Source: Globodera rostochiensis (lineage: Eukaryota; Nematoda; Chromadorea; Rhabditida; Heteroderidae). From it: 64,000 nt of DNA. Location of the stretch: the NCBI GenBank assembly GCA_018350325.1, contig JAEVLN010000025.1, positions 1 through 64,000 of the forward strand, read 5' to 3'. The position numbers and the translations under genes were made by a program. Numbering within the stretch: position 1 is the first letter of the stretch; the number at the start of each line of letters is the position of its first letter. Of this stretch, positions 13,766 to 35,932 are shown one piece after another. The notes under the pieces are model-generated. The model had not been told where the DNA came from, made no database searches, and saw only the letters and a list, made by a program, of their open reading frames with translations.

Positions 13766-13858
13766 CAACGCTAAAATAAGCCATGTTGCTGTTAACATTT
13801 AATCATTATTTTCTACGTGTAAAGCTCACGCTTTGCCTGATCTTCATTAATGAAAAGT

Positions 13859-15126: not shown

Positions 15127-15356
15127 TCTAATAATCGCAAAGTACAAATAAAGTTTTCTGGGTAGCTGAGCGACCATTCTACGCATCTAAGGACGCTCTT
15201 TCATTTGATCAAACATCTGTACTGAACGGGGCTGTTTCTGATAAGAAGTAGGCTTTTTGCCCACGCCAAATTTTATTTATAATATTTCTTAAATCAATAT
15301 TTTCTCAAAAAAGTTAAGTAAAATAAAAAAAGGTAAAAGCAGTAGAACCAGTTTAT

Positions 15357-15841
15357 TTATTGTAAACTATTTGTTACAAAGGCATAAACAAACTCGTCGG
15401 GCCTATTTGATCGATTAAAAATTTGCATAACAACTTCAAAATCAAAGCCAACGGACATCAAATAAATAAAAGTGATTACATAATGGCCACAAACATTAGA
15501 AAAGATTGACTGAAATATTCTTTTGTTAAAATAAATTTTCTTAAATTTTTCTGACAAATATTTTTTAATTAAAGAGTTTGGCATATCGCCATAAGAATCA
15601 AAAAAATAGGCCTCTGTTGGTGACTTGGCCCAAATCGCGCACCAGTGAGAACCCGGCCTGCCAGCTCGGTCCTTAATATAAAATTCGTAATAAATAGTTT
15701 TGCAAAACATACCAAATTAACAATCAGGCTGCAGGGGAATCTTGAACACCCTGGCAGACCATCCGAAGGGAAGGTGCCCATAAAGAATTTCCTTGTCGCC
15801 GGATTTTCAAAGAGAATCTTGTCGATGAACCGGTTGTCCAT
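15357..15841 (-). CDS. adenovirus-type maturation cysteine protease (PRO), copy 1
   Basis: Predicted Polinton maturation protease, 147 aa, which would process virion precursors. Two exons: 15,713-15,841 (ATG 15,841) and 15,357-15,671. The 41-nt intron 15,672-15,712 has a strong GTATGT donor and an ATTAAG acceptor. Joining is in phase and brings GTFPSDGLP and CSLIVNL up to the catalytic-His segment GSHWCAIW. Further on come FFDSYG (acidic residue of the triad) and NVCGHY (nucleophile Cys). This order matches adenain-like peptidases, though the protein is shorter than adenain at about 200 aa. Its ATG overlaps the end of the membrane-protein gene by 35 bp. Without the intron the frame is broken, so expression needs splicing. 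Confidence 0.88.
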
Positions 15842-16043
15842 TTTGGCGCCGAATTCTCCTTTCTCGCAAGAACAAATAAAATCCAACGGCTGCAGCCCCT
15901 GCAGTCCCAAACAAATAGAGAAGGCAGAGCGCAAAGTGTATAGGCGACTTTTCGATCACCTCCGGGAAACAAAGAACAACCCCCTCGCGCGGGGATGAGG
16001 CCATTTGAATAATTTTTTCCAAGGAGTAATTGTCGTTTTTCAT
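15807..16043 (-). CDS. small single-pass membrane protein, copy 1
   Basis: 78 aa from ATG 16,043. A hydrophobic segment around residues 33-57 (FALCLLYLFGTAGAAAVGFYL) is followed by a basic stretch RERRIRR, suggesting one transmembrane helix with a positively charged inner side. Its ATG overlaps the stop of the capsid gene in an ATGA arrangement, and its end overlaps the protease start by 35 bp. This supports a real gene read from a shared transcript. Function unknown; small membrane proteins are frequent in virion-forming Polintons. Confidence 0.6.
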   Translation of the reverse strand: MKNDNYSLEKIIQMASSPREGVVLCFPEVIEKSPIHFALCLLYLFGTAGAAAVGFYLFLRERRIRRQNGQPVHRQDSL

Positions 16044-17427
16044 AAGGACAGGTCACTTGTAATTGATCTATTACGATCAATTAGAATGAGGCCGTCGGCC
16101 TCTCCGTAGGCTATTAAGGTGACACCCTCGGGGGGAACAGGTTCGGAAAATCGTATGTTCACCGCAGTGCATCCCTCCTTGATCAGCTCAAAGCCAGGCG
16201 AGTCTTCCTTGCGAGTTGGTCATTTGGAAGACATAAAGGCAAAAAGCCGTCTTAAACATGCTGTAGCTGAGGCCGTTGCTTTCGGTTGTACAAGCAAGGC
16301 CGAGGTGTTCCTGCGCGTCATGATAGGCCCTTGCATAATTGTTGTTTTTGTAGTCCAAATTGTAGGGGTATTGGGGGTATGTTCTGCCAGAGGCCGTTAG
16401 TTCAATGTCCCTAACCTAAAAAGGCAAACGCTTGAGCAAGTTTTTAATTGGTTCTTACGTTATGGTGATTAAAGAAAAAGGGGTTCTTTTGTTTATGGCC
16501 AATGTAGTTCTGATTGGCGACTAGCCCGATGATGACCCTTCTTGGCACTTCCTCCGTGAACAAATTGGCAGAAAAGTCGTATCGACCTCCGGTAATGAAC
16601 AGGGACTTCATAAACGATTTGCGAATCCCAAATCTGGCCGGCTCAACATCCAGCTTCCTTGCAATGTCCAAACTCAGCCCGTCCATTAGATCGACAGTTT
16701 TCACAATCAGTCGGCAGTCGGAAATTTCCAAAACAAATTTATCTTTTTCTTTTTCTTGGTGCAGCATAAAATCGTCAGACTGCAGCGCGAGTTCAATGTC
16801 AATCTCGACATTGCTAATCATATACAAGTCTTGGTTGAATATATCGGCACTCAACTTGCTGATTGTTTGATAGGCCTTGCTTTCAGCCAACGGCTTCCTT
16901 CGCTTATCATTGGCCTTAGAAAGGTCAGTGTCGCGAAAATAGCCCGCCACCCCAAAATAGGCATCCTTTGCAGCAATCGGATAACTGAGTTCCGTGTCGA
17001 GGTACACCTTGTAGCTGTACAACTGGTTGGAGTCGTACACCTCTCGCTGGTTGATATGCACTTTCAAGTTTCGAATAAAGGTTGCCCCGGGCATTTGGAT
17101 TAGCCCAACCGAGTCAGACGACCCAATATTATTAAGCAATCCATCTTCGGCAATCTTTTTGATCTTAAACTCAGTGAACACAAAGACCTTGCTCAGATCA
17201 ATATAGCTGGTTATTGGGTGAATCTAAATTTTATTAGCGATTGAGTACGCAAAGACAAATTTATCGATTACCTTAAAATGAAAAGGCCTAGAGCTTATCG
17301 GGTTCAAGGTCAAATATTCCCGATAGCTTGAGTTTGACACTGCGCAGTTTGTTGGGGGAGTCGTAAAAAAGTCTAGCCCCGCATTTGCCACCTCCGCACT
17401 CGCAACATCCACTTTTTTATACAACAT
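16040..17427 (-). pseudogene. major capsid protein gene, copy 1, frameshifted
   Basis: Same exon structure as the intact copy at 19,927: exons 17,272-17,427, 16,459-17,223 and 16,040-16,415, with introns of 48 and 43 nt. An extra C near 16,207 (CTTCCTT against CTTCTT in copy 2) shifts the frame in the last exon, after about two thirds of the C-terminal jelly-roll segment. Everything upstream is near-identical to copy 2. The break could be a true mutation or an assembly error. The first two exons remain coding. Confidence 0.8.
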
Positions 17428-17442
17428 TAGCAAAGCAAACAA

Positions 17443-17961
17443 TCAATAATAACCGAGGGAATCAAATCGTTTCTTTTTTAAAAGAGCTCTCTGGGGGACA
17501 GTTTGTCCAACAACGTCAAAAGGCTTCAAAATGATCTCCGCTTTTGTCTTCTTCCCTCTCCTCTTTCGTTTACCCCTGCCCTTTTGTAGTGATGAGGAGG
17601 CCTTGTCCAGCAGCTTTTTCGCCCCCTCTTTTCCCTCCGCCAACAGAGCCTCCTTAATGTCGCCGCCTTTCGAGACTTGGCTGAGGACTCGCGCACCAGT
17701 TTCGAGGCCCTCCTTGCCAAGTTCAGTGGCAATATTTGCAGCGTAAGGCTTAGCTGCAGATATCATGGGGCGCAGGTAGCGCCACAAATTTCGCAGAACA
17801 GCTCCAACTCCTGCCCCTTTTTGGCGTGGGACCCCCAAAAAGTACCCGTATCCCCGCTGAAAAGTCGGCAAGCCCTCAAAATAGGTTATAGGCCCGCTGC
17901 CTGTTTGCTGATAAAACTGGTCCAGCCGCAAGTTGGAGCCGTCGAATATTACACGAACCAT
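17443..17961 (-). CDS. basic virion/core-type protein, copy 1
   Basis: 172 aa, ATG 17,961, no intron needed. The N-terminal third has FDGSNLRLDQFYQQTGSGP and PTFQRGYGYFLG. Then comes a segment resembling the small Polinton protein with consensus 'RGxGxG...LFR...P...K' (VGAVLRNLWRYLRPMISAAK). The C-terminus has a K/R cluster (KGRGKRKRRGKK) that would bind DNA or act as a nuclear signal. It is placed between penton and capsid genes, as the equivalent small protein is in other Mavericks. I infer a core or capsid-associated role. Copy 2 differs at residue 26 (T here, A there). Confidence 0.7.
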   Translation of the reverse strand: MVRVIFDGSNLRLDQFYQQTGSGPITYFEGLPTFQRGYGYFLGVPRQKGAGVGAVLRNLWRYLRPMISAAKPYAANIATELGKEGLETGARVLSQVSKGGDIKEALLAEGKEGAKKLLDKASSSLQKGRGKRKRRGKKTKAEIILKPFDVVGQTVPQRALLKKKRFDSLGYY

Positions 17962-17964
17962 TTT

Positions 17965-18085
17965 TCAAAAGGTCAGAACCTTTTTAAACTGAAGCGTCAA
18001 AACTACTTGCCCAAAATCAAATGGAACTTCCCTAAAATAGATTTTAAAAGGGGCCTTAGATGTAAGTACACATACCGGCCGGTCA
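17965..18085 (-). pseudogene. 3' stub of the penton gene at the duplication junction
   Basis: Contains only the last exon (17,965-18,031, EVPFDFGQVVLTL), the last intron and a few bases of the exon before it. Then the sequence switches to TIR DNA at 18,086. It is a by-product of the tandem duplication and several bases diverged from the functional copy. Confidence 0.85.
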
Positions 18086-19243
18086 CCTTTAATTCTCCCT
18101 ATATACTGGCGAATGACGTCACCCAAATTTTTTCCCTGCGAGACCTTATTTAATATTTTAATTTATTTTTAATTTATTTTTTATTTGATTTTGTCACTGC
18201 GCGAGATTTTATTACTTTTTAATCAATTAAATCATTTGCATCCAGGGGGATCCGAACCTCAGCTTCCACTGCGAGGGAGCCGCGAGCACTAACCACTTGG
18301 CCATGGGGTGTTGGAAGTAAAGGCCCCTAATTATCCCTATATACTGGGGAATGGCGTCACCCAAATTTTTTCTCTGCGAGAATTTATTTAATATTTTTAT
18401 TTTAATTATTTAATTTATTTTTTATTTAATATTTAAATTTTTATTTTTTTGCGCAAGTTTTATTTTTGAATTTTTTCTGCGCGAGATTTAAATATTTAAA
18501 ATTATTTTTTAATCAATTAAAATCATTTTCATCCAGAGGGATCCGAACCTCCGCTTCCACTGCGAGGGAGCCGCGAGCACTAACCACTTGGCCATGGTGT
18601 ATCGGGAGTAAAGGCCCCTAATTATCCCTATATACTGGAGAATGACGTCACCCAAATTTTTTCTCTGCGAGAACTTATTTAATATTTAATATTTTTATTT
18701 TAATTATTTAATTTATTTTTTATTTAAAATTTTATTTTTATTTATTTTTATTTTATTTTGTCACTACGCGAGATTTTATTACTTTTTAATCAATTAAATC
18801 ATTTGCATCCAGAGGGATCCGAACCTCCGCTTACACTGCGAGGGGCCAAGAGCACTAACCACGTGGCCATAAGGCATTGGGAGTAAGGGCCTCTAATTGT
18901 CCTTATATGGTGGGGGATGACGTCATATTCTTCGCAAAGGGAATAAACAATTTCAACTGCAGTAGTAACTGAGGGGGTTTGCAGCCAACAGCCAAGTTCA
19001 AAGCCCTGCGCGATCTAATAATCGCAAAGTACAAATAAAGTTTTCTGGGTAGCTGAGCGACCATTCTACGCATCTAAGGACGCTCTTTCATTTGATCAAA
19101 CATCTGTACTGAACGGGGCTGTTTCTGATAAGAAGTAGGCTTTTTGCCCACGCCAAATTTTATTTATAATATTTCTTAAATCAATATTTTCTCAAAAAAG
19201 TTAAGTAAAATAAAAAAAGGTAAAAGCAGTAGAACCAGTTTAT

Positions 19244-19728
19244 TTATTGTAAACTATTTGTTACAAAGGCATAAACAAACTCGTCGGGCCTATTTGATCG
19301 ATTAAAAATTTGCATAACAACTTCAAAATCAAAGCCAACGGACATCAAATAAATAAAAGTGATTACATAATGGCCACAAACATTAGAAAAGATTGACTGA
19401 AATATTCTTTTGTTAAAATAAATTTTCTTAAATTTTTCTGACAAATATTTTTTAATTAAAGAGTTTGGCATATCGCCATAAGAATCAAAAAAATAGGCCT
19501 CTGTTGGTGACTTGGCCCAAATCGCGCACCAGTGAGAACCCGGCCTGCCAGCTCGGTCCTTAATATAAAATTCGTAATAAATAGTTTTGCAAAACATACC
19601 AAATTAACAATCAGGCTGCAGGGGAATCTTGAACACCCTGGCAGACCATCCGAAGGGAAGGTGCCCATAAAGAATTTCCTTGTCGCCGGATTTTCAAAGA
19701 GAATCTTGTCGATGAACCGGTTGTCCAT
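19244..19728 (-). CDS. adenovirus-type maturation cysteine protease (PRO), copy 2
   Basis: Copy of the gene at 15,357 inside the second duplicate. I saw no difference in the coding sequence. Exons are 19,600-19,728 and 19,244-19,558, with the 41-nt intron at 19,559-19,599. The His (GSHW), acidic (FDSYG) and Cys (NVCGHY) motifs are all retained. Two identical protease genes in one element are unusual and stem from the tandem duplication. Confidence 0.88.
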
Positions 19729-19930
19729 TTTGGCGCCGAATTCTCCTTTCTCGCAAGAACAAATAAAATCCAACGGCTGCAGCCCCTGCAGTCCCAAACA
19801 AATAGAGAAGGCAGAGCGCAAAGTGTATAGGCGACTTTTCGATCACCTCCGGGAAACAAAGAACAACCCCCTCGCGCGGGGATGAGGCCATTTGAATAAT
19901 TTTTTCCAAGGAGTAATTGTCGTTTTTCAT
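19694..19930 (-). CDS. small single-pass membrane protein, copy 2
   Basis: Identical copy of the gene at 15,807-16,043. Here the upstream capsid gene is intact, and its TGA stop (19,927-19,929) lies inside the ATGA overlap with this start codon. The arrangement suggests termination-reinitiation on a polycistronic mRNA, or trans-splicing between the genes. Confidence 0.6.
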   Translation of the reverse strand: MKNDNYSLEKIIQMASSPREGVVLCFPEVIEKSPIHFALCLLYLFGTAGAAAVGFYLFLRERRIRRQNGQPVHRQDSL

Positions 19931-21313
19931 AAGGACAGGTCACTTGTAATTGATCTATTACGATCAATTAGAATGAGGCCGTCGGCCTCTCCGTAGGCTA
20001 TTAAGGTGACACCCTCGGGGGGAACAGGTTCGGAAAATCGTATGTTCACCGCAGTGCATCCCTCCTTGATCAGCTCAAAGCCAGGCGAGTCTTCTTGCGA
20101 GTTGGTCATTTGGAAGACATAAAGGCAAAAAGCCGTCTTAAACATGCTGTAGCTGAGGCCGTTGCTTTCGGTTGTACAAGCAAGGCCGAGGTGTTCCTGC
20201 GCGTCATGATAGGCCCTTGCATAATTGTTGTTTTTGTAGTCCAAATTGTAGGGGTATTGGGGGTATGTTCTGCCAGAGGCCGTTAGTTCAATGTCCCTAA
20301 CCTAAAAAGGCAAACGCTTGAGCAAGTTTTTAATTGGTTCTTACGTTATGGTGATTAAAGAAAAAGGGGTTCTTTTGTTTATGGCCAATGTAGTTCTGAT
20401 TGGCGACTAGCCCGATGATGACCCTTCTTGGCACTTCCTCCGTGAACAAATTGGCAGAAAAGTCGTATCGACCTCCGGTAATGAACAGGGACTTCATAAA
20501 CGATTTGCGAATCCCAAATCTGGCCGGCTCAACATCCAGCTTCCTTGCAATGTCCAAACTCAGCCCGTCCATTAGATCGACAGTTTTCACAATCAGTCGG
20601 CAGTCGGAAATTTCCAAAACAAATTTATCTTTTTCTTTTTCTTGGTGCAGCATAAAATCGTCAGACTGCAGCGCGAGTTCAATGTCAATCTCGACATTGC
20701 TAATCATATACAAGTCTTGGTTGAATATATCGGCACTCAACTTGCTGATTGTTTGATAGGCCTTGCTTTCAGCCAACGGCTTCCTTCGCTTATCATTGGC
20801 CTTAGAAAGGTCAGTGTCGCGAAAATAGCCCGCCACCCCAAAATAGGCATCCTTTGCAGCAATCGGATAACTGAGTTCCGTGTCGAGGTACACCTTGTAG
20901 CTGTACAACTGGTTGGAGTCGTACACCTCTCGCTGGTTGATATGCACTTTCAAGTTTCGAATAAAGGTTGCCCCGGGCATTTGGATTAGCCCAACCGAGT
21001 CAGACGACCCAATATTATTAAGCAATCCATCTTCGGCAATCTTTTTGATCTTAAACTCAGTGAACACAAAGACCTTGCTCAGATCAATATAACTGGTTAT
21101 TGGGTGAATCTAAATTTTATTAGCGATTGAGTACGCAAAGACAAATTTATCGATTACCTTAAAATGAAAAGGCCTAGAGCTTATCGGGTTCAAGGTCAAA
21201 TATTCCCGATAGCTTGAGTTTGACACTGCGCAGTTTGTTGGGGGAGTCGTAAAAAAGTCTAGCCCCGCATTTGCCACCTCCGCACTCGCAACATCCACTT
21301 TTTTATACAACAT
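19927..21313 (-). CDS. major capsid protein (double jelly-roll), intact copy 2
   Basis: Predicted 431-aa Polinton hexon-type major capsid protein. Exons 21,158-21,313 (ATG 21,313), 20,345-21,109 and 19,927-20,301. Introns of 48 nt (GTAATC...TTTAG) and 43 nt (GTAAGA...TTTTAG) are both in phase 0. Characteristic segments are GLDFFTTPPTNCAV near the N-terminus, SYIDLSKVFVFTEFKI, LYSYKVYLDTELSYP, FFFNHHN joined to VRDIELTASG, and the C-terminal IRFSEPVPPEGVTLIAYGEA with IDRN. These match the capsid family found widely in Mavericks and, in C. elegans, annotated as F54H12.2-like (recalled, not searched). It lies 15 bp from the basic protein and overlaps the membrane-protein start. Confidence 0.9.
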
Positions 21314-21328
21314 TGGCAAAGCAAACAA

Positions 21329-21847
21329 TTAATAATAACCGAGGGAATCAAATCGCTTCTTTTTTAAAAGAGCTCTCTGGGGGACAGTTTGTCCAACAAC
21401 GTCAAAAGGCTTCAAAATGATCTCCGCTTTTGTCTTCTTCCCTCTCCTCTTTCGTTTACCCCTGCCCTTTTGTAGTGATGAGGAGGCCTTGTCCAGCAGC
21501 TTTTTCGCCCCCTCTTTTCCCTCCGCCAACAGAGCCTCCTTAATGTCGCCGCCTTTCGAGACTTGGCTGAGGACTCGCGCACCAGTTTCGAGGCCCTCCT
21601 TGCCAAGTTCAGTAGCAATATTTGCAGCGTAAGGCTTAGCAGCAGAGATCATGGGACGCAGGTAGCGCCACAAATTTCGCAGAACAGCCCCGACTCCTGC
21701 CCCTTTTTGGCGAGGGACCCCCAAAAAGTACCCGTATCCCCGTTGAAAAGTCGGCAATCCCTCAAAGTAGGCTATAGGTCCGCTGCCTGTTTGCTGATAA
21801 AACTGGTCCAGCCGCAAGTTGGAGCCGTCGAATATTACACGAACCAT
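21329..21847 (-). CDS. basic virion/core-type protein, copy 2
   Basis: 172-aa duplicate of the gene at 17,443, with one residue change. ATG 21,847 lies three bases after the penton gene's TGA at 21,851-21,853, and its stop is 15 bases before the capsid ATG at 21,313. This tight spacing fits co-transcription of penton, basic protein, capsid, membrane protein and protease. Confidence 0.7.
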   Translation of the reverse strand: MVRVIFDGSNLRLDQFYQQTGSGPIAYFEGLPTFQRGYGYFLGVPRQKGAGVGAVLRNLWRYLRPMISAAKPYAANIATELGKEGLETGARVLSQVSKGGDIKEALLAEGKEGAKKLLDKASSSLQKGRGKRKRRGKKTKAEIILKPFDVVGQTVPQRALLKKKRFDSLGYY

Positions 21848-21850
21848 TTT

Positions 21851-23742
21851 TCAAAAGGTCAGAACCTTTTTAAACTGAAGCGTCAAAACTACTTGCCCAA
21901 AATCAAATGGAACTTCCCTAAAATAGATTTAAAAAAGGGCCTTAGAAGTAAGTACACATACCGGCCGGTCAGTGTTCGAATCTCAACATCCAAAACGTCC
22001 ACCTCGCGGGCGATTATTTTATGAAATAAAGGGGTCTGGAAATCTTTCTCAACCACGCTCCCTGATTTGCCTTCAACTGCAATCACTTGGAGGAGATTGG
22101 CAAAAGTATTTCCGAAAATCATGCTTTCAATGATCCCACTGTTGAGGTAGATACACAAATGGCTTACGCCGCCGCCCAAATCAACGCAATATTTGGCGAG
22201 ATCCTCGTTTAGGATTTGCTGCTCCTGCTCATAGCCAAGTACGTAGGCCAACTGATCGGTCAACGTGATATGCGAAATTTTGTTGTCAAAGATTTTCAGC
22301 ATAAACCTCCCAATATCCTCCATATAATAGAAACGGAATCCTTTGACGAGCGCGATCAGCTCTTGTTTTTCCTCTCGAGTTTTTGACCCATAGTTTTCGT
22401 CGTACACTTCGCGTTCAAACAACCCTTTGAACTCTGCGATGTTCCGCTGAATTTGGGAGGATGGGTTAAACGCCGGCAGATCCCAGGGCAGCTCTGGGTG
22501 ATAAATCCGATATTTATCAACTGCATTGGCAAAGTGGTATTCATCTTTTTCGTGCAGATAATGGACATCGGGGGTTGGGTCTTTGCCCTGCACTAGACGC
22601 ATCCATCCACCCCTATACGGTTTCAACTCCTTGAGAAGCTCGAGCTCTCGCAGTTTAAATTTTCTTTCTTGATCTCGCCGCATTCTCTCTTCTTCTTTAT
22701 TTTTGTCTTGGCTGGCGCTCTCTTGTTTTAGTTTGCCAACTCTCTCGCTCTCCTTCAGCTCATTCTCTTTCCGCTCATTCTCTTTCCGCTCATTCTCTTT
22801 CCGCTCATTCTCCTTCCGCTCATTCTCCTTCCGCTCTTTCTCCTTCCGCTCATTCTCCTTCCGCTCTTTCTCCTTCCGCTCATTCTCCTTCAGATCATTC
22901 TCTTTCCGCTCATTCTCCTTCCGCTCTTTCTCTTTCCGCTCATTCTCGTTCGTCGCATTCTCTATCCGCTGTAACCTCTCTATCTCCTTACGCGCAGCCT
23001 CTTGCCGTTGTCTCTCAGTCTCTTTGCGGCCATCCTCTAGCCATTTCTGTCTCTTGGCCTTTCGTTCATTTTCAATCCTATCTTTCTCTTTACGGTCTTC
23101 CTCCACCCGCTGCAGCCGCTCTGTCTCTTTACGGTCTTCCTCCAAGCGCCGCAGCCGTTCTTTCTCTTTACGGTCTGCCTCCAAACGCCGCAGCCTCTCA
23201 TTTTCTTTTTCGTACGCATGTCTCTCTTTTTGCTCCTTTTGGGCACGCTCCCTCTCTTGGGTTGCAGTCTCATTTCTCAGAGGCAGGAGAGGGGCTTCGC
23301 CCGGGGGTTCGACGCCTTGCTCTTCCTCAACGACTTCTAGGTCAAAAAGCTCTCCTTCCTCTTCTACAAGAGCTGCCCTTTTCCGCGTCATCAGCCGTTC
23401 CATCTCGGATATCATGCCATGATGGATTCCACGCTCAAGTTGTTGGGGCGAAAGAAAACTCCCGCTTGGCACTCTGAACCTATATTTGCGGCCATCGCGC
23501 AGATGAACAATCACGTATTGTTTCTCAAGCGTGCCCACTGTTGCCCAACTTAAAGGTAATTGGCTAAAATCTCTTGCCCAATTGGCTTACCTGTTGGGGT
23601 AAATTATGCCAGACATTCCCACCATCCACCCCGACCCTTCAAACACCAATTTCTTTGGCAAATGAACTTTGAATTTATTCGTTTTATTTCCAACAAACCC
23701 AGGCGTATTGCTGGGTAAAATTACAAAAAAGGAGTTGGTCAT
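21851..23742 (-). CDS. minor capsid (penton, single jelly-roll) protein with a long charged coiled-coil insert
   Basis: Predicted 601 aa. Exons 23,591-23,742 (ATG 23,742), 21,962-23,548 and 21,851-21,917, with introns of 42 and 44 nt. The total is divisible by three. The N-terminal segment (MTNSFFVILPSN, KFKVHLPKKL, GIIYPNSW) is typical of Maverick penton proteins. So is the C-terminal part (HITLTDQLAYVLGYE, LLQVIAVEGKSGSVVEKDF, VDVLDVEIRTLTGREV). Between them lie about 245 residues of almost only E, K, R, N and Q (22,625-23,360), with 6-residue repeats of the ERKENE type, predicted to be a long coiled coil. Usual pentons of this family are about half this length. The first intron has two in-frame acceptors (15 nt apart); TTTAAG gives the better match. 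Confidence 0.88.
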
Positions 23743-23774
23743 TTTTAACAAATCGATAAAATGATCAAGTGAAA

Positions 23775-24523
23775 TCACTTCCCGCCTGTGTACGGGTGAT
23801 AGGGTCCGTTCTTTGTTGGCGCAAGCTTCTTTTGGTGCTTCATGATCAAGTCCGTGCAGTCAAAGTTCAGCTTGGCACAGTCACGGCAGAAAGTTTGGGT
23901 GAACTCCAAACGGCCGTCGCCATTTTGGGGTGCCAACACGAAACGGCGGTCACCCAGCAGGAAATTGGCGTTTTGGCAATCTTTGCACATAAACGTGAAG
24001 GTGCCATACTAAAGGGGAAAAGTTTAAGTTTAAGTTATTTGGCAGGAGCTCTCTTACCTTTGGTCGAGCGAGTTTCCAAAAGATGGTTGGGTAGTCAAAG
24101 ACACTTGGCTGGCTCTTTTCCTCGCCTGAAGTGAATAAATCGCAAGGCCTGCGATCTTAGAATACCGTCACTTTCGTTGGCACGAATTTTTCGGGGCGGC
24201 AGCTCCTCTTGTTCTTGCTGTTGTTTGTCCCAGCGAGGCTTTCTTCCCCGTTTGGAAGGCCCAGATTTTTCCACAAGGGGCTTTCTGTCGTCCTCGTCGT
24301 CGTCCAAAATGATGACATCATTTTCGGGTTTTTCTAAGTTTTTTGTTTAAAAAAATTGTAATAACGGAAAAAGTAACCTTGTTTAATTTTACGAGGCCCA
24401 TTATTCTCCTTGCTTGAATCCCCAAAGTTTGGCTCTATAAAACGGCGCTTATGACGATTTATAAATTTTGAAATTACTTTGGCTTTCCTCCAGAAATTGT
24501 TCATTTTGTCTTTTAGGAGCCAT
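23775..24523 (-). CDS. 190-aa zinc-binding protein, function unknown
   Basis: Five exons: 24,478-24,523, 24,378-24,434, 24,166-24,333, 24,058-24,125 and 23,775-24,008. Introns are of 43, 44, 40 and 49 nt, and the total is divisible by three. The N-terminal half is charged and disordered. It contains NDVIILDDDEDD, which resembles a SUMO-interaction motif next to acidic residues, and a basic segment KRGRKPRW. The C-terminal half has YGTFTFMCKDC, later FCRDCAKLNFDC, consistent with a C4 zinc ribbon. It is the first gene of the leftward block, divergent from the PAZ gene. I do not recognise the family. A regulatory or late-transcription role is only a guess. Confidence 0.68.
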
Positions 24524-24816
24524 GAATAAAAGATGACAAAAAATAATGACTTTCGCGTAAAATGATCTGCAAAAATGTTTGGGGGAAAAGGGAAAAAGAA
24601 ATAAGGGTGTTAGCTCGCAGGGACCTCTAGACAGTTGCGTTACGAAATAAACGCCCCGCCCATTCGCCTCCTTGAGAGAGAGAGAGAGTACGTGCGTGTT
24701 GAGGGGCCCCAACCAAAGATAGAGAAAGAAAAAGGCGGGAAAACCAAATTTAAAAGCTAAGGCCCAAGCCCTTTATTGATTTTTTCGTCAAACTTTTTAT
24801 TCTTCATTTGTTTAAG
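24524..24816. promoter_or_regulatory. divergent promoter region in the middle of the Polinton
   Basis: The 293 bp between the ATGs of the leftward zinc-protein gene (24,523) and the rightward PAZ gene (24,817) must drive both blocks. It contains a GAGAGAGAGAGAGAG tract near 24,675 and TTTAAAAG about 60 bp before the PAZ ATG, but no clear TATA box. Confidence 0.5.
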
Positions 24817-25361
24817 ATGATCCCGTTAACTACCGCCCTGTCAAAATTGTTGAATTGTAAACCGGAAAATTTGGCGGAATATTTGAATAACCCTGAGGCG
24901 GTGAACAAAGCGTCCGGCTACTTGGGCGGCAAAAAACTCAAAACAACATACTTGAGCCGTGACGCCACGACAAAGGACGTCAAATTTGGCAATTTTTCAC
25001 TAAAATCAGCGTCGGACACCTACGCTTTTGAAGGATTTCTTGGCATGTTTTGTCATCATTTTCCCCCTTCACACTAACACCCTCCTTTTCCAGAGGTCAA
25101 AGTCCACCAATATTTCTACATAAAACACCGAATTCGGCTTCTTTACCCTCAGTTGAAGTGTGTGGTGGAGTACCACAACAAAGGCCACAGCAAATATTAC
25201 CCCTTGGGCAAGTTTTATACCTAAGGGGATTTCGAGAATTGACCCTTTATTTAGAGTTGTTAGCCATTGACGAACTTGCCGAAGGAGGCGATAAAGCGTC
25301 TGACGACCACAACTACTTGGACTACTTGAGTTTCCGAACTTGGCAGACTCCAGTCTATTAA
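24817..25361 (+). CDS. stand-alone PAZ-domain protein
   Basis: 148 aa from three exons: 24,817-25,042, 25,094-25,207 and 25,255-25,361. Both introns (51 and 47 nt) have GC donors (GCATGT, GCAAGT) and AG acceptors; no GT donor gives an open frame. The product reads as an Argonaute-type PAZ domain almost from its first residue. It has an N-terminal helix (LTTALSKLLNC), a strand KKLKTTYLS, NFSLKSASDTYAFE, then VKVHQYFYIKHRIRLLYPQL and KYYPLELLAI. These correspond to the PAZ signature 'TVAQYFK..Y.I.LRYP.LPC' and 'YLPLE'. No PIWI, MID or RNase III domain follows; only an acidic and aromatic tail of about 30 residues. I infer binding of small-RNA 3' ends, with suppression or redirection of host RNAi as the likely role. 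Not reported for Polintons to my knowledge. Confidence 0.72.
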
Positions 25362-25373
25362 GTGGCGCAGAGA

Positions 25374-25844
25374 ATGAAACGGGCAAGGCCGTCGCAGGAG
25401 TTTCCGGAGATTGAGTTCAACGTCAACACAATGGGTCTGACCGTGTATTGCCCCCGGCACCTGAAAACCCCGCGCTTGGTGCCATGGGACCAGCCGGGCC
25501 GCTGCTCTCGCTGCAGGAGCGGCACTGTCGAGCTCGACTACTTTATTCAGGCAGAAGGCGTTACAGTGTTCTCGACTCGGCTCAAAAACGGGGGCGAACA
25601 CTTTGTGCCATTCGACGAGATCGGTAAAGGGTTTGTGTCTACCCTAATCAATAATTTAATTTTAGTGGATTTTGGCGACAACGCCAAAATTCGAATAAGA
25701 TCGCGCAACAAAGTGTTCACTCTGCCATTGAGGCAGCCGGAGGTTTGGCAAGCTGAATCTGTTGCAGGGGCCGGCCAAGTGTTGGCAGTTCAACCGCCGA
25801 CGGAAGTGATAAAGGACGGAGAGGAGAGGAAAGACACAAATTGA
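25374..25844 (+). CDS. small zinc-finger protein, function unknown
   Basis: ATG 25,374 lies 12 bp after the PAZ stop. 25,624-25,665 is very likely a 42-nt intron (GTAAAG...ATTTTAG). Because its length is divisible by three and it lacks a stop, both the spliced (142 aa) and unspliced (156 aa) forms are open. The protein has CPRH...CSRC, a likely C2HC or C4 zinc site, near residues 26-52. A beta-rich middle and an acidic tail EEVIKDGEERKD-like follow. No family is recognised. The position suggests co-expression with the PAZ protein. Confidence 0.6.
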   Translation: MKRARPSQEFPEIEFNVNTMGLTVYCPRHLKTPRLVPWDQPGRCSRCRSGTVELDYFIQAEGVTVFSTRLKNGGEHFVPFDEIGKGFVSTLINNLILVDFGDNAKIRIRSRNKVFTLPLRQPEVWQAESVAGAGQVLAVQPPTEVIKDGEERKDTN

Positions 25845-25904
25845 ATTCTTACCTAAAATTGAGGCCGATCAATCAATCAATCAATTATTCTAATCTTTTT
25901 TGTA

Positions 25905-26598
25905 ATGGACTATCCGAGAATAAACGAGCAAGAGTTAAAATTTCCCATACCCTGCGGGATTATTGTCAGTGGGCCCTCCTCGTCTGGCAAAACCCAACTG
26001 GTCCTTCGCCTATTAAGCTGCGCAGACGAAATGTTTGCCCCTGCCCCTAAGGCAATAGGTTAGCGCTTGATGATTCACAGGTTTATTGGCTGATTAAGTT
26101 TGGGCGTACGGCGAATACTCTGCGCAGATTCCGGAATTGGAGAGGCAGGGCATAATCGTTCATGCAGGAGCCCCGTCAGACGAAATGTTGAACAAGTTGC
26201 CAAAACCCTTTCTCATTGTATACGACGATCTGATGGGCGAGATTGACGCGAAGAAGTTGGCTGACCTGTACACCAAAAAGTCCCACCATAACAACTTTGC
26301 GGTGATTTTCCTCACGCAAAACCTATTCGACAAGGCAATGAGAGTGCCAAGGTCAAACGCCCAGTACATTTTCCTTATGAGGGCGCCAAACGACATGTTG
26401 AGCATTCGCAATTTGGCCACTCAAATATTCCCTCGCGAGCAGGGGTTTCTGATTGACGCTTATAAACAGGCGTGCGCTGAGCCGTATGGGTATTTGTTGG
26501 TGACCCTTCACGCAAACACTAACAACATTTTACGCCTGAGGACAAACATTTTTCCGGAGGACGACGAAAAAATTATATTTGTTTCCAAAAATGGTTAA
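25905..26598 (+). CDS. genome-packaging ATPase (FtsK/HerA, A32-like)
   Basis: 217 aa from exons 25,905-26,058 and 26,099-26,598. The 40-nt intron (GTTAGC...GATTAAG) is in phase 1. Walker A is IIVSGPSSSGKTQLVLRLL at residues 18-36, and Walker B is FLIVYDDLM. A downstream IFLTQN-type sensor and the C-terminal RLRTNIFP follow. This is the ATPase that would pump element DNA into capsids in the Polinton/adeno-like lineage. Its stop overlaps the next ATG (26,591) by eight bases. Both Walker lysine and aspartates are present, so it looks functional. Confidence 0.9.
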
Positions 26599-26986
26599 AC
26601 AAGAAAAGAAACAGCTGATCGGACAACGCGTGTTGGAAAATTACGAATATTTGAAAACCCTTGGAAAGACATCCTCCCAGAAGAAGATACGTCATTTGTT
26701 AAGCAGAGCCGGGTGTGAGGAGCTGTTGACGTTGGTGGAAATCTGTTTGAATATTTTAAACGGAAGTTTTTGTCTGACCAACAAACAAAAGCAAAAGATT
26801 ACCCCCTTTGCAAATTTTGTTCGAAAGTTGGCTCGAGCGAGAAGCGAAAAAAGTGCCAGAAAATTGGTCCTTCAATCCGGCGGTTCACTGTTTGCCCCCC
26901 TATTGGCACCGATATTGATTGAGGCCGCGCGATATTTGCTTTCGGGACGAGAAGATGGCCAACAAACTAATTCTGCTGCCAGTTGA
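26591..26986 (+). CDS. small virion-type protein with hydrophobic C-terminus
   Basis: 131 aa, ATG 26,591, overlapping the ATPase stop. A charged helical N-terminal part (ELLTLVEICLNILNGSFCLT, KLARARSEKSARKLVL) is followed by GG and a hydrophobic stretch SLFAPLLAPILIEAARYLL. This architecture is typical of a small Maverick protein that usually reads 'EICLNVLNG...K...LLxQxGGFLxALLAPLL'. The GG context may be a protease-processing site, and the hydrophobic tail may be membrane-active (inference). Confidence 0.68.
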   Translation: MVKQEKKQLIGQRVLENYEYLKTLGKTSSQKKIRHLLSRAGCEELLTLVEICLNILNGSFCLTNKQKQKITPFANFVRKLARARSEKSARKLVLQSGGSLFAPLLAPILIEAARYLLSGREDGQQTNSAAS

Positions 26987-27725
26987 ACACTACAGGGGAC
27001 TGGTTGCGGCGAGGGAGAAAGTAGAGGATGACGTCACCGATCAGACAAATTTTGGGTTTGTCAAACAACAGTTTGAAAAGGCAAAGAGAAAGAGGGCGGC
27101 AAACGTCAGCGAAAAGAGTGCAGAGTACAATCAGCAGTTGAGGAGATATTTAAAGCTTCGCAAAGAGGTCAAGGACAAACCGGTCAAAGTTCAACTCAGC
27201 AATGGAATGCGCCTGATGACCAAACCCCCTGCAACGGGTGTGCAGCTGAAGCCTGGGCCTGAAGAAGTTGAAGAGACTATTGTGATTGGTGGCAGTGAGG
27301 CGGATGATGATGAGCCTGCGGCAATAAGCAGCCCCAAGTTTTCTACGCCAAAGGAGGTGGAAGTTGGCCCTGAGCCAAGAGTCAGCAGGAAGAGGGATCT
27401 CAAAAAACAGGAGATAATGGCCAAAAAGGAAAAGCTTTTGTCGATAATAAAATCAAACCCCAAGCGGTTTGGCGTAAATGAGCGTGATAAAATCATCAAT
27501 CCCTCAACAGGGCGAGAATTTGTTGATTTTGATTTGACTTGGGCGATTGAACGACTGGTGAACCCCCGTCCGGAAAATGCCCCGTCGCCAAGCGGAACTC
27601 GGGAGCTGACAAAAAAACTCTTGCAAGACCCAACCGCCAAGCAGTTAATCAACCCCCGATTTGTCGGATCCGGAAAGACCATCAAACGCGGGGGATTTTG
27701 CCCTTTAAAATGGAAGAAAAAATAA
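26955..27725 (+). CDS. conserved Maverick 256-aa protein (virion-associated, unknown role)
   Basis: ATG 26,955 lies inside the end of the previous gene. The N-terminal NKLILLPVEHYRGLVAA, a charged helical middle and an acidic linker are followed by a C-terminal conserved domain. That domain runs from LLSIIKSNPKRFGVN through a glycine turn to FVDFDLTWAIERLVN and ends LINP. The pattern 'LVPxxxYxxLL ... YGIN...GSNIxDLxxYxV...P.G...F' is shared by a protein encoded next to the integrase in many Polintons, whose role is not established. The integrase ATG (27,710) overlaps its last codons. Confidence 0.65.
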   Translation: MANKLILLPVEHYRGLVAAREKVEDDVTDQTNFGFVKQQFEKAKRKRAANVSEKSAEYNQQLRRYLKLRKEVKDKPVKVQLSNGMRLMTKPPATGVQLKPGPEEVEETIVIGGSEADDDEPAAISSPKFSTPKEVEVGPEPRVSRKRDLKKQEIMAKKEKLLSIIKSNPKRFGVNERDKIINPSTGREFVDFDLTWAIERLVNPRPENAPSPSGTRELTKKLLQDPTAKQLINPRFVGSGKTIKRGGFCPLKWKKK

Positions 27726-28862
27726 ATAAAATATACACGGACCCCTCCAATCCTGGGGGGTTTGCGGGCGCAAAGCCTTTATACGCGGCAGTCAAAAAGA
27801 AACACCCTGGCGTGAAGAGGGCAGAGTTTGACGACTTTTTGCGGGGAAGTACCACCTATACGCTGTTTAAACCTAAGCGCGAAAAATTCCGCCGCCTAAG
27901 AACAATCCCCGGCGGGTTTATGACCGGTGAGTTACCCTCCCTTTAGCCCTTTTAACTTTGCGTTCAGATGTTCAAGCCGACTTGGCAGACTTCCAAGCCC
28001 TGTCGCGAAAAAATTCAGGCAATCGATATCTTTTGTTGGCAGTTGATGTGCTGTCGAGGCGGATGTTTGGCGTGCCAGTCAAAAGTAAAAAGCCCGCTGA
28101 GATGAAAAGGGCCTTTGAAGAACTTTTTGGCCAAATGCCAAAACTTCCTGAAACCTTGTACACGGACCGGGGGTTGGAGTTTGTGGCCAAACCCCTCAAG
28201 GAATTTTACGCTGAAAAGGGCATCAAAAAGTTTGAGACAAGTTCAAAGAAGAAGGCCGCCGTTGCAGAGCGCGCAATTCGCACGCTCAAAACCCGGCTGT
28301 ACAAATATTTTTCTGCCAAAAATACCTCAACTTGGGTTGATGTACTTGCGAAATTTTTGGCTGCCATAAATAATTCGGTGTGCCGCGCAACCGGCCTAAA
28401 ACCCATCGACATTGATGAACAAAACGCGAGGGAGGTGTGGAAAAAAGTCTATGGCGAAAGTATTGAGCCCTCTATCAAGACCCCCAAGATCAAATTGGGG
28501 GAAAATGTCAGAATTCCAGAACCCAAACACATTTTTGAAAAGGGTATAAAAGTTCAAATCTTAAGTTTTTAAATTAATTAAAATTTTTAGGATATATGCC
28601 AAACTATTCGGACCATGTCTATACTGTTGATGAACGGCGTTCATCCAATCCCGAACATTATTTCGTCAAAGATTATTATGGAACAAAACTCAAACGAAAA
28701 TTTTATTTACCCGAGCTGACAAAAGTAAAAGTTGACAAAAATACACTGTACAGGGTGGAGAAGAAGTACAAGGAGAGGATAAGAGATGGCCAAAAAGAGA
28801 TGTTGGTAAAATTTATTGGATTTTCGGAAAAATATTGGGTTACAAAGGAAGATTTTGATTAA
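27710..28862 (+). CDS. Polinton integrase (rve, DDE) with chromodomain-like tail
   Basis: 354 aa from exons 27,710-27,926, 27,968-28,543 and 28,591-28,862, with introns of 41 and 47 nt. An N-terminal helix region is followed by the rve core. The catalytic acids are D in ADLADFQAL, D in LYTDRGLEF and E in AVAERAIRTLKTRL, with about 35 residues between the last two. The C-terminal YRVEKKYKERIRDGQKEMLV with KFIGFSEKYWV resembles a chromodomain, lacking the last helix. It catalyses insertion of the element; the 6-bp duplication at the ends is its expected product. The stop is 66 bp from the stop of polB (convergent). Confidence 0.92.
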
Positions 28863-28928
28863 AAATAAAATAAAAGAGAAAAATTAAAATTTTAATCGGA
28901 TTCGGGAGCAAGATCGGCGACGTTAAAG

Positions 28929-31900
28929 TTATATTCGGGTTAGGGGACAATTACAACTATGGGGGTTGTTCAGCTGGCAGTACTCCCAATCGGAGTAGCC
29001 AAAGGGGACCACTCGCAGTCCATGGTCCCTGATCACGCCCTTATTGACCGTGGGGTTGAACCTCTTCGCCAGAGGGACGGTGAAGATGTCCCCCTCTTTG
29101 GTGATCCGGAAGTTCTTTGTTGGGTAGTTGAAGCTGCAGTAGTTGTCCACCGCGCCCCACTTCTCCAGCACCATCTCCTTCATCTTTGCGTAGTTGATCT
29201 GCTGGCAGGCGTCCGAGTCGAGGGTGATGCCGCGCAGCTTCATCTTGTATTGGTCCTCGCCGGTGTTGTTGTCCCGCAGCCAAAGGGCGTAGGCCTTTGG
29301 TCCCGCTAAAATAACAATTTAATATTTTTCGGATCCCCGACCCTAAACCATACCGCAAATGAATTCCACAATCGTGTGGTTCGGATATTCATCCGTCAGC
29401 TCTCCTAAACAAGAACTTTTATTTTTTATTTTTTTAAATTCAAAAATACCAAGTTGTTCTCCGCCAGGCAGCGGATCCCCCAGCGCCGTCTCGTACTCGT
29501 AGAAGATGGAGTCGGTGTCCTTAAGGGCAATTTTTAAAAAAATTTATTGGTTTTTTTTAAAAACCAATTACCATATAAAGTACGCGCGTGTCCTTCCGGG
29601 CGGAGCCATCCGGAGCGCAAAAGACCTTGCACAGCGAGTCCAGCAGGTGGATCCGAGCCGCTGAAGTCGTCCAAAGGGCCAATGCGACCTAAATAGTCAA
29701 ATTCAAATTAGTTTCCCTCAAACCCTTCGAAATTTTTACGTTGCTCGTGTCGTGCTCGACCACGTGCTCATCCTTCGTCTTGTAGCACACCATCCAAAAC
29801 TTCTCCGTCAGCTGGTCGATGCTGCTGATCTCGATCTTCTCGTCGTTCAGCAGCTTGGCCAAGTCCGCGTGGTTGTCGATGATCTCCGTTTTGGTCAGCC
29901 GATTCCTAGAATTTAGATTTTTTTTGTTATTTTTTTAAATTATTTTATTTTTGTAAATTTTACCTTAGCGCAAAACGCCCCCAAAGGGAGTTCAGACAGA
30001 GCTTGGCCACGTACCGCAGGCCCGTGTTGTACTTGATATTGTCCGGGTTTAAACGGACTTGGCACACGCTCCAGGCCTTGTCGATGTATGCCTGCTTGCG
30101 GGCGGCCGCCTCCTCCTCGCTGATGCCCTCCTCCGAGCAGTTCGCCGGGTATCCGCTGGCTAAATTAAATTTTTAATTGGAAAACTAAGCCAAATAGAAA
30201 GATTACCCTCAAACTTCATCTTCAGAAACTTTTCGAGGTAGCTGTGGAACAAGAAGCCACTCCAATCGCTTGCCAACGGCCAGTTGTACGCCCTGTAGAC
30301 TCGTGTGACTCTGTAGCCCACTTTGAGGGCCTCCGCCAACTCAATGTGCGGGATTGTCACCGAAAAGCCTTAAATTCAAAATTGAATTAGTTCATATTAA
30401 AAATATTAAACCTCTTTCGGCGTCCTCAAAATGGGGGCAGCTGTACTCCCTGTCGGCGGCGCTTTGGGGTAAAGTTCCGAACACTTGCGGCACAAAGGGA
30501 AGAGCGTCCGTTTGTTCATCCGCAGCGGCAAGACGGGAATGCCGCAGTGGACGTGGCGAGGCGGCACGACGAAACACTTGATGATCCCTTCCAGCCTGTA
30601 CCCGTCGTCCCCGATCATGTCTGCAGGCTTGCACCAGTTGACGTCCTTGTCAAAGTGGATAAGCGTTGGATGACCGACCGGGTAGCTGGTGAACATGTTC
30701 CTGAAGCTTAACCTTTAAGGGCGCCCATTGCCAACCGCTTACCGAGAGGGATAAAGGCTGTTGAAGTCCTTGATTTTGATCGTCCTGGGCAGTAGTTCGC
30801 CAGTTTCCAAGATCACTGACGCCCCTAACCACTCAGGGCCTGTTCGGCCTTTAATTTAATTTTAAAGTATATAAATTTAAATTTTGTAAATTTACCGCCA
30901 AAAAAGGCGTCGTGAAAGTCGATTGGGCCCGAGTCTGGCGTGTTATCGAAGAAAGCCTTCATCGCTGGGGTGTCCTCCAGCAGCCGGTTGAGATGGCACT
31001 CCCAAATGATCTCGACCTCAAACTCCCGCGCAATTTGGGCGATGCGCTTCGCGTCCCTTGCGCGGATGGCTCCCGCTGTCTCCCCTCCGGCAACAATTGC
31101 CGCGGCGTCTGGGAAACAGTTCGGACAGGCGTGCCAGAAGCAACTGTTTGTGCCAAAATTATCGCAAACCGCCCTTTTTTCACTTACCCGTTGACCTCAA
31201 TAGCGAGGTTATTGCCGTCTCCCGGCCTTTCCAGCATCCCGTCCAAGCTGTAGTTACCGAATTTGTACTCTCCGCCAGGGCTTTCGACGTGGCGAAGGGT
31301 GAGGCCGTTTTCGCGCATCTCCTCCTCCGCGCGCCACTTAAGTTATTATTTCTTATTTTATTTATAAATTTTAACTTACCTTTAGGTATTTCCGTGCAAT
31401 CGTGCTTTGCTTTCCTCTCTTCTCGTAGCCAAGGTGGGGGATTATGGCGATCTTCTGCTTGTCGTAGTGCGCCACGGACACAAAAAACTTCATGCAAGCG
31501 GACTAAAATTATTTTAAATATTTTATTTATTTTTAAAATTTAATGAAAACTAACCGGAATCGTCACCGAATCGGTGATGTCGTCAAACGTTTCTTTGTAA
31601 AACAGCTCGCGCATCTTAATCACCCCGTGTGCGAGAATTTGGACGTCTAAATTTAAAAAAAAGTTCAAATTTTATCGCCTAAATAGACCGGTTTTGCAGT
31701 AGTCCGCGATGACTTCGCGCAGAACAAAGGGGGTATTGAAGTTCTCCCTGTGCCATCGCTCAAGTTTCTTGCGTTCCTCCGGGAAATGGCCTCCTGGATA
31801 GTACATCTCAAGCGGCGGCAGCGTTTCGAGCGCCGTGTCGTAATTTGCTTCCTAAACGGCAATTTAAAAGATTATTTTTAATTTTTTTATTTTAGGCTTA

Positions 31901-34577
31901 CCTTGTTAAACTTATGCGGGAAGTACTTTTTGTTCTCCACGCCATCAATTTCAAGCCCAAAGGTTTTGACAAAGGCCGCCAGTTTCACCGGTATTAATTT
32001 ATAACTGAAAAATTAATTAAATTTCGCATTTTAATTTTTATTTGCCTGTCTCGAAAGACAGTCGCCGTAATGCCGCCCTTTTTGGGAGCGCGCATCTCCA
32101 GCAGATGATTTCCCTGGCGTACAAGATCCGGGCACACCCCCATCCTCAGCATTTCGCCGTAGACCAGCACGTGGTCATAGCGAGAGCCTTAACTTGCCAG
32201 GTTTTTTTATTTTTTATGTCGTAATTTCTTTGCCTGCGTGTGCGTAGGCGTAGGTTGTTACAGAGACCGGCTTTTCGCCTTTCTCGCCAAAGATCATCCA
32301 GTTGTTGTCGTCATCGTCGTCACTTTCAGCGTCATCGACCTCCTCGGCCAGGATGTTGCTGTTTTTGGCCGGGGCGCGCTTACGCTTCCGGCGATCGTTG
32401 GGGTCAACCCCCAGCGTCTCTGACTCAAAGTGCAGCAGCCATTTGGTGAACGCCGCTAGTGGGGCGTCCACCCTGAAGTGCCGATCCACGTCGGTGTTGT
32501 CGTAGTGGAACGGGGCCCAGGAGTAGAATCGAAGGGGCCCACAAAGCGCGCAAGCTTTTTCCAGGTCCTTGTCCCAGACATCCTTTTCAATGCACCTCGT
32601 GCAAGTCACGTGCGCGTAGCAGAAATTAACCTGTTTGTTTATGAAATTTTCAACCTGACTTTTTTCTTTTTCTAAATTACCTGGTGCTTGAAGCGCAGAA
32701 TCTCCGGGTCCGGCTTGAAGTCCGTCGTGCATTCGAAGTCAAAGAAGATGAAACGCTTCTCCTTCTTCGCCTTGGGCCGATACGGGATGTAGCAGTCGCG
32801 CGGGGCATGGAAGCCGAGACAGACTCGGCAGAACTTTTGGCCGCACTGATGCCCCTTCTGCTTGTCTTGGAGCTAAAATTTAAGGCAATGTCAATTTGAT
32901 CAAAATTAAGGTTTACCCGAATTTGATAAATTACACCGCAATCTGGGCATTTTTTTGAGCTTTTACAGATGGACTTTTCGATGGTAGTCCCCTCTTTCCC
33001 GCGTTTGGCTTTCTGGGCAATAATTTTGGCGTGGTGCTGATAGCACTCCGCAGATTTGAAAGTCTGAAAATGTATAAACAAATTTTGAACCGGTTGCTTT
33101 TTCTAAAAGACCCTCCGTCCTTACCTTGCTGCAGGCCAAGCATGTTTCAAAGAAAGTGCCATTCTTGTTGTCACAGTTTCCTCTAAATAAGTTGCCGACC
33201 CGTTGACAGTTGTGGCACTTCCATTTGCAGTTAGCGTTATGGCGGTTTGGTTGAAGATATGGCATCTCGCACTAAAATTAAAATGTTTAAACAGGCTTTT
33301 AACTTGTTTGCATACGCCAAAGCAGTAATTTCCGTTGTTGTTAAATATTTTTCCCATCGATTTGATGGGGTCGTAGTGCCCTGCAGCCCCATCAACGCCC
33401 TCTGTAAACAGCACACAAAGCTCGTGCTGGTAGTCCTCAACCTCGGTTTTCCAAGAAGGCTTCATTTTGCCAGATGTTTCGAAGCAGAAAAGCCGGAACA
33501 TTCCGGGATGAAGCTGCTCATAAAAGGCCTTAAAATAAAATATTATTGTCGCAAGTATTAATTTTAGTCCAACACACCTGAATTCTTTCTCCATATTCTT
33601 CAACAGAATAAAATGGCTGATCCAAATCAATGTTGCATGCACCGCACAAAACGCGGACATCATTGAGTTGCCATGACGGAGCGCGCTTATATTCGCTAAA
33701 CCGTTGATGGGGCAGCACAAATTTCATGCGCAGAAATTCGAAGGCCCGAAAAAGGCAAAAGTTGTCGTTGTTCGTCAGTTCGAATGTTGCTCCCTGATGG
33801 ATGGTGTAGTTGATGTTGAACTCCTTGGGGCGTCCTCTGCCGGCCAATTTTTTCCGCTTTCCGCCGCTGTCGATCGCTGTGATGTCGATAACAAACGATT
33901 CCTCGCAAATGGACGGCCTTTCCTTTGACTTGTTGCTTTGATCCACCATTTCAAAGCGTGTCAAAATTGTCTCTGCCGAAGTGTTGTCGATCTTTTTGAA
34001 GTGTAGAGCGATTTCGTAGTCCAGGTGGCGTGCAGACAGTAGAAAGATGAAGTGATCCGCCACAATTTTCATTCCTTTCGCTCCTTTCACCGCGTAGGCC
34101 AAGCTCATGGAAAAAAGAGCCTTCAAAACATCCTCGGGGTATGCAGACCCCCAGATGAAGTTGAGCATAAACCGGCCGATAAAGCGAAATGCTTGAACAG
34201 AAATGAAATTTTAGCCCGCGCTGTCGTTAAAATTTAGTTTTTTGATTTTAAAAAATTTTAAATAAACTGATTCGAAGATTTATGTTAATTATAAAGGGAT
34301 CATTTTCTTTTATTTTATCTTCGCCACACCTTTAAAGCGCCCGCTACTAGCCTGTGCCGCTGCCAGGCACATCCAATTTTCCCCTGTAAACTCGTTGACG
34401 TCCAAATTCTTGTTCACCTCAGGCTTTTTCGGTTGGGGTCGCGGCGGCGCAGCAACCTGAAAAAATTCTCGAACTGCTAGAAATATCTTTAAAATTTAAA
34501 AAATTAAGCCCTACAAGGGCCTCATGCGGAAGACGTTCAAGTACATTTTCCATTGGCGGCGCCGGCAAATATTCCAT
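28929..34577 (-). CDS. protein-primed DNA polymerase B (pPolB), 25 exons
   Basis: Hand-spliced to 1,476 codons without a stop. Exons (5' to 3'): 34515-34577, 34330-34456, 33578-34191, 33304-33528, 33125-33271, 32917-33063, 32681-32872, 32234-32630, 32046-32187, 31902-32004, 31689-31851, 31555-31646, 31380-31502, 31188-31336, 30896-31143, 30743-30848, 30485-30700, 30412-30449, 30207-30368, 29964-30159, 29740-29905, 29572-29688, 29450-29519, 29354-29404, 28929-29305. Motifs: Exo I FIFFDFE; Exo II AYAHAGSRYD; palm DFNSLYPS; KLCLNSLWGRF; YMDTDS (split by an intron between M and D). A Cys/His-rich region precedes Exo I, as in other Polintons. Introns 32188-32233 and 32005-32045 are GC-AG. An acidic insert (EEVDDAESDDDDD) precedes Exo II. 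The first two exons are less certain; an alternative start is ATG 34,168. Confidence 0.9.
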
Positions 34578-34914
34578 TATTTTTAAAAGTTGGCTAAACT
34601 CGGTTCGTAATGCTAAAACTTTTTTTAAATTCAACTTTACGGTTTTGACCAAGCTGAATTTTATTGATTGGATGAAAAATACAAAGTGGGTATGAATCAA
34701 ATGAGAAAATGATGACAAATAAATAAAGGGAATATCATAAGGTATCAAATTTCAATCAATACAATTTTATTTTATATTTACAATTTTTATTTGTTTTACG
34801 AGATTTATTTAGAAAATCGATCTTACAAATAAATTTTTTATATTTGTAAATAATTTGAATTTATGAATTTATTAAATTTAATTTAAATATTTAATTTTAA
34901 AAAAACAATATCGG
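34578..34914. promoter_or_regulatory. AT-rich upstream region of polB
   Basis: 337 bp between the polB ATG and the inner edge of the right TIR. It is very AT-rich, with many TTTATTT and AAATAAA words. No specific element is recognised. It probably contains the polB promoter together with the TIR. Confidence 0.4.
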
Positions 34915-35926: not shown

Positions 35927-35932
35927 AAAAGT

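Follow-up and report, generated by a model that had tools for sequence, protein, structure and literature searches.

Polintons of the nematode Globodera rostochiensis carry a recurring gene for a single-domain PAZ protein

We analyzed a 64,000-nucleotide stretch of the Globodera rostochiensis genome (contig JAEVLN010000025.1, positions 1 to 64,000; hereafter, the window), which contains a Polinton, or Maverick, of 22 kb. The element is bounded by terminal inverted repeats (TIRs) and a 6-bp direct repeat, AAAAGT, and it is identified as a Polinton by its genes for DNA polymerase B (PolB), integrase, packaging ATPase, protease and capsid proteins, together with the TIRs and the 6-bp target duplication. 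Within it lies a gene encoding a PAZ domain, which to our knowledge is normally found only inside Argonaute and Dicer. The initial annotation, made from the letters alone, had placed this gene inside a Polinton, and the TIRs, the target duplication and the counterparts of Polinton genes in the window support that placement. Its lead position in the rightward block, where it borders a divergent intergenic region, is supported too. Leftward of it are a small gene whose product has two CxxC pairs and then the minor capsid gene.

The same annotation had described a three-exon gene with motifs such as KYYPLELLAI and two GC-AG introns, a structure that was borne out. A search of the same 92.6-Mb genome with the DNA of the window gene returned 18 copies including the window's own, 8 of them (the window's among these) at 96-100% identity and 10 at 88-90%. 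The intron borders are kept in 18 of the 18 copies and exon lengths of 226/114/107 in 16; of the two others, L013 lacks a single base of exon 2, and L026 lacks a single base of exon 1 and another of exon 2. Both introns vary in length from copy to copy (Table 1), and constant borders around introns of varying length fit what would be expected if they are spliced. The GT donor nearest to intron 1, at 25047, would shift the frame. If exons 1 and 2 are joined as proposed, a single-residue gap is predicted between their matches in a homologue encoded in one piece; in one such homologue, P0071, exactly one residue separates the two. GC donors are described as unusually frequent, and RNA-supported, in G. 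rostochiensis (PMC4901422).

We scored the window exons against Pfam one by one. Scored in this way, exon 2 matched PAZ at E 0.074, below the cut-off, and exons 1 and 3 matched nothing. One-piece homologues exceed the curated PF02170 cut-off of 28.8 (P0071 at 32.3, L027 at 43.5 and L028 at 37.6); other relatives fall under it (L033 at 28.7, L035 at 27.8, P0075 at 24.1, P0083 at 19.7 and P0087 at 14). A structure model of the homologue P0071 has the PAZ fold. In these homologues, profile and fold both speak for PAZ.

The absence of PIWI, MID and RNase III parts, also claimed at the outset, is supported by the scanned open reading frames (ORFs) and by the coordinates of PIWI hits. No RNase III or helicase family passed its cut-off in the scanned PAZ ORFs and neighboring ORFs, a PIF1 helicase match in one L032 ORF (14.3 bits) being below it. 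With coordinates compared by eye, no PIWI hit lies within 12 kb of any of the 50 Polinton-type PAZ loci described below, and one lies within about 3 kb at 10 of 11 Argonaute-type PAZ loci, the C5 locus having none. The window gene is therefore neither an Argonaute (no PIWI alongside) nor a Dicer (no RNase III or helicase in the scanned ORFs). Its product is a single-domain PAZ protein consisting of N-terminal helices, the PAZ fold and an acidic tail that is probably disordered. Compared with the PAZ domain of AGO-clade Argonautes (PF02170; hAgo1/2), it has no MID or PIWI in the scanned ORFs, carries the acidic tail instead, and is encoded by a Polinton. The gene derives from an Argonaute-type PAZ. 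In a tree of the short domain, host sequences sit among the viral ones at nodes with support of 0.11 and 0.00, which leaves the donor Argonaute unplaced; several viral PAZ sequences find their best host match in the C5 PAZ piece, but this is only a hint to the donor.

The initial annotation had supposed that one element captured a single set of host exons. This has to be corrected: PAZ is a recurring gene of the Polintons in this nematode, as homology, fold and linkage within its genome show. Searching the genome with three PAZ proteins and merging rows of single genes by hand, we obtained 53 PAZ loci, 3 of Argonaute type and 50 others. A capsid or polymerase hit lies within 12 kb of 43 of these 50, and such neighborhoods make up 2.06% of the genome (based on hand-merged lists of 55 capsid and 56 polymerase places, weak polymerase hits to E 0.01 included). 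As a control, Polinton queries matched at none of 11 Argonaute-type PAZ loci (six taken with 1.5 kb on each side, five with 10 kb in all). All 18 window-type copies sit between the ATPase and the minor capsid gene. At 7 loci the 12-kb surroundings lack a capsid or polymerase hit; three of these have an integrase (C44) or a CxxC neighbor (C56:4418062 and C26:664106). The remaining four (C9:2005283, C45:3419538, C45:3572141 and C17:991770) have no detected Polinton gene within 12 kb and are candidates for decayed elements or host-adopted copies. The PAZ ORFs at C26:664106 and C13:618278, both 294-aa open frames, scored identically in two of the three PAZ searches.

Comparing one window-type subfamily with the other (7 x 9 intact copies, without L013 and L026), we obtained a mean synonymous divergence (dS) of 0.336 and a mean nonsynonymous divergence (dN) of 0.046, a ratio of 0.14 (range 0.10-0.22); the window PAZ family is under purifying selection. 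A chance resemblance is ruled out by fold and recurrence. The separate exons do score weakly, as they might if the gene were a chance likeness or a decayed fragment of host exons, but the fold, the one-piece homologues, the 18 copies and the dN/dS ratio contradict this, and we regard it as extremely improbable.

The features of the window element are collected in Table 1. The protein queries used to name its genes came from another Polinton of the same genome, one that is less fragmented (L043, L032). Pfam backs the integrase, protease and polymerase; the name of the ATPase comes from motifs and general knowledge, the L043 piece having no Pfam match, and the two capsid proteins are presumably the major and minor ones. 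A Pfam scan of ten further window ORFs, some of which lie within genes later named by tblastn, found no family. The major capsid and protease genes are present twice owing to a tandem duplication of some 3.9 kb (14300-22050), and a tRNA-Glu-like sequence lies at 35360-35434, in the repeat-rich right terminal region.

Table 1. Features of the Polinton and its PAZ gene (window coordinates)
Feature	Position	Strand	Evidence and remarks
Whole Polinton	13859..35926		TIR arms 13858-14333 / 35452-35927 (95%), target duplication AAAAGT
Maturation protease copy 2	15435-15841	-	Duplicate of copy 1
Major capsid protein copy 2	16049-17421	-	Duplicate of copy 1
Maturation protease copy 1	19322..19728	-	tblastn; L043 query Peptidase_C48 E 3e-4, just over cut-off
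Major capsid protein copy 1	19936..21307	-	tblastn E 2e-97 to L043 protein (no Pfam match); name presumed
Minor capsid (penton-like) protein	21919..23739	-	tblastn E 9e-27 to L043 protein; name presumed
Divergent neighbor with two CxxC pairs (ribbon-like)	23800..24134, limits approximate	-	Likeness to CxxC genes by eye
PAZ gene exon 1	24817..25042	+	N-terminal helices and first PAZ strands; 52% to P0071, E 3e-20
PAZ gene intron 1, GC-AG	25043..25093	+	Borders kept in 18/18 copies, length 50-52 nt
PAZ gene exon 2	25094..25207	+	Pocket helix and strand, HQYFYIKHRIRL; scored alone, 13.4 bits for Pfam PAZ, under the cut-off; 56% to P0071, E 2e-15
PAZ gene intron 2, GC-AG, donor GCAAGT	25208..25254	+	Borders kept in 18/18 copies, length 45-55 nt
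PAZ gene exon 3	25255..25361	+	Last PAZ strand and acidic tail; no Pfam family alone
Packaging ATPase main exon	26098..26595	+	50% to L043 protein, E 3e-56; Pox_A32 13.6 bits, below cut-off
Integrase	27710..28856	+	rve E 2.7e-9; tblastn
Multi-exon DNA polymerase B	28995..34138	-	tblastn with L032 polymerase: main part E 7e-67; 33560-34138 E 4e-14

Outside this genome, a protein cluster search gave 90 matching clusters, plus 32 in a second round (three repeats). Every match with a named organism came from Globodera, Heterodera or Meloidogyne, and the remainder were metagenomic, including a clade that matches P0071 at about 60-69% on contigs of up to 17.6 kb. Relatives thus occur in three genera of cyst and root-knot nematodes, the linkage to Polintons being established in the Globodera genome. 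UniProt already labels several of them 'PAZ domain-containing protein', and an ORF of locus L028 matches a UniProt protein of G. rostochiensis without a difference over 188 aa. Scans of IMG/VR with A2, A3, P0102 and the L043 capsid protein, using short peptide patterns and with records near this genome possibly excluded, returned no relative, and the viral structures of BFVD gave no match at E at or below 0.001. In the literature we searched, we saw no report of a Polinton with a PAZ gene. Nematode Mavericks are described as carrying genes beyond the core, among them a fusogen, wosp proteases and krma kinases (PMC10680173), and the PAZ gene resembles these in being such cargo. The fusogen, wosp and krma genes, however, do not encode small-RNA proteins, and PAZ recurs here at about 50 loci.

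What the protein might do is suggested by its RNA-end pocket. We used 14 Ago2 pocket positions, taken from PMC5896489 and PMC8860597 and, for 279 and 294, from general knowledge; 12 of the 14 can be aligned to the Polinton PAZ. At these 12, entropy averages 1.05 bits, whereas the 140 core columns average 1.79 (p 0.0018 from 20,000 draws). Y or H occupies position 271 in 48/48 and H or Y position 311 in 48/48, while 315 is R or K and 316 is H in 47 of the 48 each. The aromatic and basic chemistry predicted to hold a 3' end is, at these aligned positions, mostly kept. We favor, with moderate confidence, the reading that the protein is an element-encoded suppressor of RNA interference (RNAi), built out of the small-RNA clamp of its host. 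The pocket would clamp small RNAs directed against the element by their 3' ends or 2-nt overhangs; once clamped, these could not be loaded or held by Argonaute, so that Argonautes would be starved or misdirected, and the aromatic tail may tether the PAZ protein to Argonaute or a partner. The proposed principle, small RNAs withheld from Argonaute, is that of viral suppressors of RNAi, although no suppressor made of a PAZ domain appeared among the 15 literature matches listed of 473, in the IMG/VR scans or in BFVD.

Several observations weigh against a suppressor. A PAZ domain alone grips overhangs only modestly. Two pocket positions have changed character, 335 (K to E) and 337 (T to R), and the two that could not be aligned are 294 and 295. 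No PAZ was found within 12 kb of 16 of the 55 capsid places and 21 of the 56 polymerase places; that is, the gene is not universal in the Polintons here. Finally, a tail that is acidic and a polymerase close by would fit a role in replication just as well.

The tail bears on two of the alternatives. From the 90 proteins, 80 had the motif that ends the domain, and 64 of these had a tail of at least 30 residues, some with C-termini that come from automatic gene models. These tails are 25.0% acidic (D+E) and 9.5% basic (K+R), compared with 8.7% and 16.1% in the domain. Their last residue is tryptophan in 46/64, and 53/64 have a tryptophan among the last 15; counted by clusters at 60% identity, the figures are 10/19 and 14/19. 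Among control ORFs (PAZ ORFs not excluded), 4/208 end in tryptophan. In the window clade the tryptophan sits several residues before the end. Across P0001-P0102 the acidic C-terminal tail includes a motif resembling R-x-E-C-S-Q...W, the W often being the final residue.

Acidic tails with terminal aromatics are also found on T7 gp2.5 and bacterial SSB, and such a tail is what the main rival explanation would draw on. Here PAZ would be a replication factor that, as protein-primed replication proceeds, binds 3' DNA ends left free on displaced strands or on TIRs, its tail docking on PolB as SSB tails do. In L032 the PAZ gene is convergent to PolB and 119 bp from the 3' end of the polymerase, which fits such a role, and one Argonaute PAZ structure is described as solved with deoxynucleotide overhangs. 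In the window, though, PAZ stands ahead of the ATPase, 3.6 kb from the polymerase; at many Polinton places no PAZ was found nearby, yet every active element must replicate; and coating single strands needs no pocket tuned to 3' ends. We consider a replication role unlikely, though the most probable of the rivals. The frequency of tryptophan at or near the end could alternatively mean that the tail is a protein-protein decoy entering the tryptophan pockets of host Argonautes, with PAZ serving mainly as a carrier or dimer module. hAgo2 is recorded as binding tryptophan (4olb). This would leave the greater conservation of the RNA-end pocket unexplained, and the tryptophan is not terminal in the window gene or in those closest to it; we give the decoy little credence.

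The divergent CxxC neighbor raises one more alternative, that PAZ is a virion protein, or a regulator acting with the CxxC gene, in which end-binding goes unused. All 9 places matched by the L028 CxxC protein have a PAZ gene within about 0.6 kb (coordinates by eye). The window CxxC gene resembles those beside PAZ in L028-L030 and L032, by eye only, tblastn giving no hit in the window. The pairing is not general: there was no hit in L031 or L033-L037 and only E 0.006 in L027, so a divergent CxxC partner is present at part of the PAZ loci. This, and the conservation of the pocket, make another role of this kind improbable. In other elements the CxxC gene lies divergently beside PAZ at L028:5364-5711 and L032:5342-5830, and RING-finger-like ORFs were seen by eye near PAZ, upstream of it in L027 and L029.

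Taken further, the suppressor reading would define a new class of virus-encoded anti-silencing protein, in which a free PAZ caps small-RNA 3' ends, a C-terminal tryptophan motif seizes Argonautes, and the gene is near-core in a Polinton lineage of plant-parasitic nematodes; this fuller version is tentative, and we think it rather less probable than not. About 50 loci in one genome carry PAZ alone, and at 43 of these a Polinton capsid or polymerase hit lies close by. If the PAZ protein binds small RNAs, large virus-like transposons would be turning part of the RNAi machinery against RNAi itself, which, if true, would help to explain the persistence of Polintons in nematodes.
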